Positions 719 through 2,069 of a DNA stretch of 33,878 nucleotides are shown piece by piece. Both the position numbers and the translations under genes were made by a program. The DNA lies in the IMG/VR virus record IMGVR_UViG_3300046368_000422, positions 1 to 33,878 of that record; one strand, given 5' to 3'. Below the pieces are notes generated by a model. It did no database searches. It worked only from the letters and a program-made list of their open reading frames with translations, and had not been told where the DNA came from. The DNA is from a virus. Position 1 is the first letter of the stretch, and the number at the start of each line of letters is the position of its first letter.

Positions 719-913
719 ATGGAAAACCGTATAACTTATATGCAAAAAAATTCCGGTGAAAATTTTTCGACTGTAGAGGTCGATCCCGTAACAGGTGAAT
801 ACGTTGCTAAGATACCAGAGTGGATCATCTCTGAATTTGGGTGGTATGAAGGTACGCAGTTAAATTTAGAGGTTGATGGAGATTCTATACTGATAACCGA
901 ACTCAAAGATTGA
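719..913 (+). CDS. Small AbrB/SpoVT-like swapped-hairpin protein
   Basis: A 64-aa protein whose residues about 19-62 read like a SpoVT/AbrB/MazE swapped-hairpin beta-barrel: a V-E-V-D-P-x-T-G strand, then V-A-K-I-P-E-W, a short helix, the G-W-Y-E-G-T-Q-L turn typical of 'G-[WL]-x-x-G-[TD]-x-[LV]', and a closing strand D-S-I-L-I-T-E-L. Family members dimerise and bind palindromic promoter DNA, either as transition-state regulators or as antitoxins that repress their own operon. No toxin gene is adjacent. A sigma70-type promoter with operator-like palindromes starts on the last codons of this gene, so control of that promoter is a natural hypothesis, but it is inference. No strong ribosome binding site is visible. 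The basic residues expected for DNA contact are few, so binding of another ligand, or loss of DNA binding, is possible. Confidence 0.6.
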   Translation: MENRITYMQKNSGENFSTVEVDPVTGEYVAKIPEWIISEFGWYEGTQLNLEVDGDSILITELKD

Positions 914-938
914 CGTGCTCCATGTAATGGAGTATAAT
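910..938 (+). promoter_or_regulatory. Sigma70-type promoter
   Basis: TTGACG (910-915) and TATAAT (933-938) are separated by exactly 17 nt, close to the bacterial sigma70 consensus. The predicted start is near 945, about 32 nt before the glycosyltransferase ATG. The -35 box overlaps the stop codon of the AbrB-like gene. In T4-like phages such host-type promoters drive early genes, so this gene is probably expressed before the late block. Confidence 0.8.
918..932. promoter_or_regulatory. Operator-like inverted repeat in the promoter spacer
   Basis: CTCCAT-GTA-ATGGAG is a perfect 6+6 bp inverted repeat with a 3-nt centre. It fills positions 918-932, between the -35 and -10 boxes. A dimeric repressor bound there would block RNA polymerase. 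The symmetry is seen directly; the regulatory role is inferred. Confidence 0.5.
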
Positions 939-944
939 TACACT

Positions 945-956
945 TGAATGCATTCA
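945..956. promoter_or_regulatory. 12-bp perfect palindrome at the predicted start site
   Basis: TGAATGCATTCA reads identically on both strands and sits at the predicted transcription start of the promoter at 910-938. Together with the spacer repeat it makes a two-site, operator-like layout. A short palindrome can occur by chance, so confidence is moderate. Confidence 0.4.
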
Positions 957-976
957 CATTTTAATTTGACCTAATT

Positions 977-1735
977 ATGGCAAAAGGATTTACAGTAAAA
1001 GCAAAAACGCCCGTAGCAACTCCTAGACCTGCTGAGTGGGATTACACCAAGGCAAGAGAGATGGTCAAGGGAAAGACCGTTGTATTCTGTTTACCTGGTA
1101 GAGGAGTATCATACACATACCTAAAGAACTTTGTACAATTGTGTTTTGATCTAGTACAGAACGGAGCAAGTATTCAGATTAGTCAAGACTATAGTTCCAT
1201 GGTGAACTTTGCACGATGTAAGTGTCTTGGTGCTAATGTATTACGTGGACCTGATCAGAAACCATGGGATGGTAAGTTACAGTATGATTATCAGTTATGG
1301 ATTGATAGTGATATTGTGTTTAACACAGAGAAGTTCTATCAGTTAGTATTGATGGATCAAGATATTGCAAGTGGATGGTATTGTACTGAAGATGGACAGA
1401 CAACTAGTGTTGCACATTGGATGGAAGAAGATGATTTCCGTTCTAATGGTGGCGTTATGAATCATGAGACACTTGAGAGTATTGCTAAGCGTAAGAAACC
1501 GTTCACTGTAGACTATGCAGGATTTGGATGGTTACTGATCAAGAATGGAGTCTTTGAGCACGAGGAGATTAAGTATCCATGGTTTGCACCTAAGATGCAG
1601 GTCTTTGAATCTGGTGAAGTACAAGATATGTGTGGAGAGGATGTATCATTCTGTCTGGATGCAATCGCAGCAGGTTTTGAGATCTGGTGTGATCCACGTA
1701 TCAGAGTTGGTCACGAGAAGACAAGGGTGATCTGA
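977..1735 (+). CDS. GT-A fold glycosyltransferase-like protein
   Basis: A 252-aa protein with the layout of a small GT-A glycosyltransferase, which moves a sugar from a nucleotide-sugar donor to an acceptor. An early beta strand (K-T-V-V-F-C-L-P-G-R-G) is followed by helices. The D-S-D of L-W-I-D-S-D-I-V-F (D110, D112) matches the metal-binding DxD. G-E-D near residues 220-222 fits the conserved acidic catalytic/acceptor motif, and a late His (H246, in V-G-H-E-K) fits the metal-ligand or base position. The chain is full length for single-domain phage enzymes and has no membrane segment. Similar genes are common in marine T4-like phages and may modify phage DNA, virion proteins or host surface sugars; the acceptor cannot be read from the sequence. 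It is served by the sigma70-type promoter at 910-938 and is tightly followed by two small genes. Confidence 0.75.
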   Translation: MAKGFTVKAKTPVATPRPAEWDYTKAREMVKGKTVVFCLPGRGVSYTYLKNFVQLCFDLVQNGASIQISQDYSSMVNFARCKCLGANVLRGPDQKPWDGKLQYDYQLWIDSDIVFNTEKFYQLVLMDQDIASGWYCTEDGQTTSVAHWMEEDDFRSNGGVMNHETLESIAKRKKPFTVDYAGFGWLLIKNGVFEHEEIKYPWFAPKMQVFESGEVQDMCGEDVSFCLDAIAAGFEIWCDPRIRVGHEKTRVI

Positions 1736-1736
1736 G

Positions 1737-1901
1737 ATGGCTCAGGAGTTATATACACTCACTCATGACGGAAAAGTACTTGCAGAGAACTTGACGCAAG
1801 AGGAATACTTTGATAAACTAGCAGACCTAGCAGAGGACTTCTACTCTTCTGGGTCTCCGAACCCCTCGGAAATTGAAACTACTATCACTACAACTGAGTA
1901 A
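1737..1901 (+). CDS. Hypothetical small acidic protein, 54 aa
   Basis: The ORF begins one base after the glycosyltransferase stop codon and ends two bases before the next ATG, a spacing typical of translationally coupled genes. The start is preceded by AAGGGTGA, a usable ribosome binding site. The product begins M-A-Q-E-L-Y-T-L-T-H-D-G-K, carries an acidic helix-forming middle (about residues 20-36) and ends in a Thr-rich tail. There is no membrane segment or recognised domain. Support comes from packing and the ribosome binding site, not from homology. Confidence 0.6.
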   Translation: MAQELYTLTHDGKVLAENLTQEEYFDKLADLAEDFYSSGSPNPSEIETTITTTE

Positions 1902-1903
1902 TT

Positions 1904-2050
1904 ATGGCACGCGCTAAAACTGGTCTTTCTGGTGGAACATTCGTTGAATCCAAGCCGAAGACGACTCGTCAAGGATACGGAAAAAATACAAAGTACGCCG
2001 CGACTTCTCGCAATAATGCTAAAAAGAAATATCGTGGTCAGGGTCGCTAA
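1904..2050 (+). CDS. Small strongly basic protein, 48 aa
   Basis: The product is rich in Lys, Arg, Gly, Thr and Asn, with very few acidic residues. It starts M-A-R-A-K-T-G-L-S-G-G-T-F-V-E-S-K-P-K-T-T-R and ends K-K-K-Y-R-G-Q-G-R. Such a composition suggests a disordered nucleic-acid-binding peptide or an RNA/ribosome-associated factor; that is inference. From memory, similar small basic proteins occur in several T4-like cyanophages, but without a known function. It is the last gene of the sigma70-driven unit, and its stop codon overlaps the stem of the terminator at 2049-2069. The codon use and clean packing argue that it is real. Confidence 0.65.
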   Translation: MARAKTGLSGGTFVESKPKTTRQGYGKNTKYAATSRNNAKKKYRGQGR

Positions 2051-2069
2051 GGGGGTGACCCCTTTTTTT
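2049..2069 (+). terminator. Intrinsic terminator
   Basis: AAGGGG (2049-2054) pairs with CCCCTT (2059-2064) across a stable GNRA-type GTGA tetraloop, and a run of seven T (2063-2069) follows. It ends the left transcription unit immediately before the first late promoter. Confidence 0.85.

Follow-up and report, generated by a model that had tools for sequence, protein, structure and literature searches.

A host-type promoter with a conserved operator-like palindrome at its predicted start precedes a glycosyltransferase-like gene in T4-like cyanophages

T4-like cyanophages abound in the ocean, yet only a small number of their transcription regulators have been described; a literature search found no paper on AbrB-like proteins of cyanophages. 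The systems closest to the locus described here come from bacteria, archaea and cyanophages, among the last P-SSP7, which encodes pMarR, a dimeric regulator that binds downstream of the start site at the host rne promoter (PMC9692554). In AbrB the DNA is contacted by R8, R15, R23 and R24, and the substitution R15A alone weakens binding without abolishing it (PMC4022651). Likewise, the archaeal AbrB-type protein Sso7c4 needs the arginine pair R11/R22 for DNA binding (PMC5222340). In the cyanobacteria cyAbrB1 and cyAbrB2 are highly conserved, and cyAbrB2 is associated with the nucleoid (PMC11368403).

The window, by which we mean the whole stretch of 33,878 nucleotides that was analysed, is a 33.9-kb fragment of a T4-like cyanophage, with its best matches among Synechococcus and Prochlorococcus myoviruses. 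The features of interest, which centre on a small AbrB-like gene and a glycosyltransferase-like (GT) gene, are as follows.

719 to 913, plus strand: small acidic gene of predicted AbrB/MazE fold (phrog_661, E 2.4e-13), 64 aa from the ATG at 719 or 57 aa from the ATG at 740
910 to 915, plus strand: -35 element TTGACG, sharing bases with the AbrB-like stop codon; almost every relative has a TTGAC-like sequence here
918 to 932, plus strand: spacer dyad CTCCAT-GTA-ATGGAG, which relatives do not keep; may form a hairpin in mRNA read through from upstream
931 to 942, plus strand: -10 region AGTATAATTACA, in which AGTATAATTA is invariant or nearly so in close relatives
945 to 956, no strand assigned: 12-bp operator-like palindrome TGAATGCATTCA at the predicted start, conserved in relatives
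957 to 976, plus strand: remaining leader, partly conserved (ATT, AA, TTGAC), with no clear Shine-Dalgarno sequence
977 to 1735, plus strand: GT-like gene, 252 aa (phrog_1574, E 4.3e-123; phrog_34859 glycosyltransferase, E 9.1e-5)
1737 to 1901, plus strand: 54-aa open reading frame after the GT gene (phrog_3252)
2041 to 2065, plus strand: terminator-like hairpin with a T run, the likely end of the GT unit

The counterpart of the GT gene in phage Sf-CH5 bears a glycosyltransferase annotation. At the far end of the unit (2041-2084) the strong terminator-like hairpin is followed by ATAAATA (2078-2084), a motif similar to T4-like late promoters, with the baseplate genes beyond it. On the other side, the stretch to the left of the AbrB-like gene (1-650) is richer in GC (0.50-0.59) than the window overall (0.36), and the open reading frame at 89-538 within it has no convincing family match.

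Viral contigs were scanned with the GT protein, the AbrB-like protein and DNA patterns, which yielded 280 GT-gene loci, overlapping fetches from one contig being counted separately. In 269 of these 280 the GT gene is preceded by the AbrB-like gene, and the loci that lack it are mostly contigs ending at that point. About 106 distinct AbrB-linked intergenic regions were read, and named genomes and two more scans supplied phages with no adjacent AbrB-like gene. In five GT loci (G012, G014, G015, G016 and G017) the small AbrB-like gene is absent, and phrog_661-like domains occur elsewhere, in frames of 178-264 codons.

Counts within the window were compared with expectation for promoters matching at least 11 of 12 positions (3 seen, 2.5 expected), for 12-bp palindromes (16 against 10.1) and for dyads of the 6-3-6 type (19 against 13.7), and nothing in the window alone clearly exceeds chance. 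Once relatives are compared, the predicted promoter and start-site palindrome far exceed that level, whereas the spacer dyad stays close to it; palindromes found in a single sequence can thus be sorted by comparison, one being kept here and the other not. The promoter (910-938) consists of TTGACG, a 17-nt spacer and TATAAT at 933-938, with the TGA stop of the AbrB-like gene (911-913) inside the first hexamer, exactly where an earlier note on this DNA had placed it. Almost every locus has TTGAC-17-TATAAT (or TATGAT) ahead of the GT gene, whether or not the AbrB-like gene is present, and the AGTATAATTA block has a diversity of 0 to 0.04 in thinned close relatives, so that both the hexamer spacing of 16-18 nt and the conservation that mark a sigma-70/SigA-type promoter are found. 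Judged by this conservation, the predicted promoter before the GT gene is real. Similar promoters recur in these genomes, with 14 matches in a 231-kb relative and 21 in S-SKS1, and the GT promoter is therefore an ordinary host-type phage promoter.

The palindrome TGAATGCATTCA, which the earlier note had also recognised and which is indeed conserved, occupies +1 to +12 if the start lies 7 nt past the -10 element. Its consensus in relatives is TGAAT(GC or CG)ATTCA. Across 45-46 thinned relatives nine of its 12 columns have zero diversity, one has 0.04 and the two central ones vary; for comparison, the mean diversity at four-fold sites of the GT gene is 0.39, with only 4% of them below 0.02. The central dinucleotide is self-complementary in 82/82 distinct sequences at the GT promoter (CG in 49, GC in 33), no non-palindromic centre being seen among them, and swaps between GC and CG number at least nine on both the AbrB and the GT trees. 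Elsewhere in 2.9 million viral contigs the same pattern has five matches, with the centres TT, TC, CT, TA and CA. The mark of an operator, a dyad symmetry held under selection as its neighbours drift, is accordingly found at 945-956, with some of the leader neighbours conserved as well. The view of this palindrome as an operator-like dyad, a putative DNA site with two-fold symmetry, is well supported by the sequence comparison. Four-fold-site diversity is also low in the first GT codons (977-1015), at 0-0.18 in codons 2-9 against the gene mean of 0.39, pointing to a constraint on the region where translation starts; given that both neighbouring leader bases and these codons are conserved, some of the conservation at the palindrome may belong to the entire leader. 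In one relative (L121) 26 nt with the symmetry of a hairpin (GTACCGTGTACGCGAACGCGGTACAC) are inserted between the -10 element and the palindrome and shift the latter off the start, the palindrome itself being kept except for its first base.

Dyads at this position go with the AbrB-like gene. When perfect palindromes with arms of at least 5, located after the -10 element, were counted, they occurred at 65% of AbrB-linked promoters, or 30% after thinning at 80% (z 5.5), against 2-3% in shuffles, figures that ignore kinship; at promoters without the AbrB-like gene the frequency is 1-2%, as expected by chance. In distant lineages TGTAATTACA or GTAACGTTAC stands at about the same place in lieu of TGAAT-SS-ATTCA. 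No clear dyad was found in the AbrB-linked phages S-SKS1, S-T4, Sf-CH5, ACG-2014f and S-CAM7, and one 10-kb contig (L492) has TGTAATTACA with no AbrB-like gene within its length. Operator type fits the AbrB tree no more closely than the GT tree (10 vs 9 changes). A link between the start-site dyad and the AbrB-like gene is plausible.

We would read the locus as a host sigma-70/SigA-type phage promoter that drives the GT unit and carries, at +1 to +12, a DNA site TGAAT(GC/CG)ATTCA for a dimeric regulator of this one promoter. Such a regulator would most simply block or gate RNA polymerase at the start. By position and co-occurrence the neighbouring AbrB-fold protein would be the leading candidate, one that would need either a non-canonical mode of binding or a partner. 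A host-type promoter joined to a single-promoter site of this kind at the start is on balance probable. Its footing is comparative, in that the alignments establish the conservation of promoter and exact dyad, the occurrence of one site in the 231-kb relative and the association with the AbrB-like gene; that a protein binds the dyad, and represses rather than activates, we infer.

What the AbrB-like protein could contribute depends on its structure and its surface. Its start codon is uncertain, many relatives beginning at the internal ATG equivalent to 740, and M8 and K10 are invariant. Curated family thresholds are not reached (PF04014, 14.9 vs 24.7 bits; TIGR01439, 12.8 vs 28.3 bits). The predicted single-chain fold (mean pLDDT 82.5) matches AbrB-N (1yfb) and MazE (1ub4) in Foldseek with a probability of 1.00 and an E of 0.1-0.17, the latter being no better because the chain is short. 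The AbrB/MazE fold is supported by this model, as is the earlier note's description of the gene as AbrB/SpoVT-like. R8, R15, R23 and R24 of AbrB align to about P23, V29, I37 and S38, and R11 and R22 of Sso7c4 to about G26 and I37; in 48 sequences none of these DNA-contact positions holds K or R, there being two histidines at 38. In the same 48 sequences D22, G26 and E44 never vary, and the positions of E27, E34 and E39 hold an acidic residue in almost every case. The mean net charge of the protein is about -10, its basic residues numbering about three. The missing basic contact residues together with this charge make canonical AbrB binding unlikely, and from the sequence we regard canonical AbrB-type DNA binding by this protein as doubtful. 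A host origin of the protein was considered and rejected: its two near matches (L504 and L505; 76% and 73% identity) lie in MAG contigs filed under Flavobacteriales and Betaproteobacteria, which we read as probable phage contigs, and other genome-scan matches are short only.

The earlier note had suggested this protein as the binder of the dyads at the locus, a link that survives in part, insofar as the start-site dyad goes with the gene. In its plainest form the proposal is that a dimer of this protein occupies the start-site dyad and keeps the GT promoter repressed, and the adjoining position of the gene, the rarity of exceptions to the joint occurrence of gene and dyads, and the dimeric nature of the AbrB/MazE fold all speak for it; the acidic surface, with no K or R at the contact positions of either AbrB or Sso7c4, and the lack of a second site in the 231-kb relative speak against it, and we regard the proposal as tentative, with less than an even prospect. 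Since TGAATGCATTCA is present only once in the 231-kb relative (one large relative was searched), self-regulation of the AbrB-like gene through that site was discarded. A more particular version would make the locus a phage switch with a single target, where a protein of AbrB fold, devoid of the canonical basic contacts, has come to read the start-site dyad anew, with operators of the forms TGAAT-SS-ATTCA, TGTAATTACA and GTAACGTTAC at about the same position in the gene-bearing lineages; this we consider speculative and unlikely.

The perfect CTCCAT-GTA-ATGGAG repeat in the promoter spacer is present at 918-932, as reported before, and presents a different picture. The spacer columns have a diversity of 0.41-0.72, near the ceiling of 0.75, in contrast to the -10 and palindrome columns at or near 0, and among GT loci the exact repeat occurs only in the window and in two near-identical records. 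Perfect arms in the spacers of relatives have a length of 2.96 vs 2.75 +/- 0.11, no or a weak excess, and the excess (z 2-3) is found likewise at promoters without the AbrB-like gene. Symmetry kept in the face of drifting neighbours is not seen in relatives at 918-932, and column diversity together with the arm lengths led us to reject the spacer dyad as an operator. The prediction that dyads would be conserved among relatives amid drifting flanks was thus borne out at the start site (0 to 0.04 bar the centre) and failed in the spacer, and of the two operator-like dyads first proposed one is left, the start-site palindrome.

Alternatively, the spacer dyad could have its function in RNA, as a 3'-terminal hairpin of the AbrB-like mRNA. 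In read-through RNA it forms a 9-pair hairpin in the window (-10.2 kcal/mol, z -3.84), and the region from -40 to +6 of the -10 element has a mean z of -1.60 +/- 0.29 in 18 thinned relatives, compared with -0.13 to -0.75 for stretches of the AbrB gene, so that folding at this place is modestly favoured even where the sequences are unrelated. However, about half of the independent spacers have no hairpin, one control window in the GT gene folds better still (-3.47, n=4), and the hairpin lacks a U tract; the function is rather unlikely, and the hairpin is a lead only. At most, an RNA hairpin recurs loosely among relatives and the spacer dyad is the window's own version of it. Besides these two dyads there is a third, TGTAAT-8-ATTACA at 923-942, which the earlier note does not mention; it overlaps the -10 element, and many relatives have lost it. 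Its TGTA-N12-TACA has the wrong spacing for an NtcA-type box, which, with this loss, was dismissed.

Returning to the protein, it might not read DNA at all: by acting as an acidic decoy, or by forming mixed dimers, it would put host cyAbrB or some other basic regulator out of action, and the dyad would belong to another factor of host or phage. A conserved acidic face on an AbrB fold is consistent with this, as are the high conservation of cyAbrB1/2 and the nucleoid association of cyAbrB2 cited above (PMC11368403), but the co-occurrence of dyad and gene would then go unexplained, and we hold the decoy to be quite improbable. That the palindrome acts instead in the mRNA leader, as a 5' hairpin affecting translation or stability, accords with its position in the transcribed leader and with the conservation of leader and first codons at synonymous sites, yet shuffled sequences fold as well as the leader does (z 0.67, 0.41), the 12-mer alone does not fold and an RNA hairpin would put in its loop a centre that is always GC or CG, and this decidedly improbable role was set aside for the absence of folding support.

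The reading we prefer, of a host-type promoter with a dimeric-regulator site at its start, can now be set against the described systems. Early sigma-70-type cyanophage promoters share TTGAC-17-TATAAT with the GT promoter, which differs from them in its conserved palindrome at the predicted start. pMarR belongs to the MarR family and activates a host gene, whereas the putative site described here is on the phage genome itself. The phage protein has the same predicted beta-beta-helix-beta-beta fold as AbrB-N, MazE, SpoVT and VapB, with 1yfb, 1ub4, 2mrn and 2w1t as its best structural matches, and its motif TGEYxxxIPEWI..GWYEGTxxNxEVDGD fits the AbrB pattern; it departs from the SpoVT-AbrB superfamily in its non-basic DNA-contact positions, its charge of -10 and its scores below the cut-offs of the family models. 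By profile its nearest solved relatives are structures of Sso7c4 (5itm, 5itj, 2l66; E 0.39-0.56), the arginines R11 and R22 of which are missing, G26 and I37 standing in their place. The comparison defines, across many relatives, a specific, putative regulatory site before a conserved GT-like gene. The candidate binder encoded next to it raises the question of whether an AbrB fold without its arginines still reads DNA or targets something else. The arrangement is of a known kind; the candidate protein is unusual.
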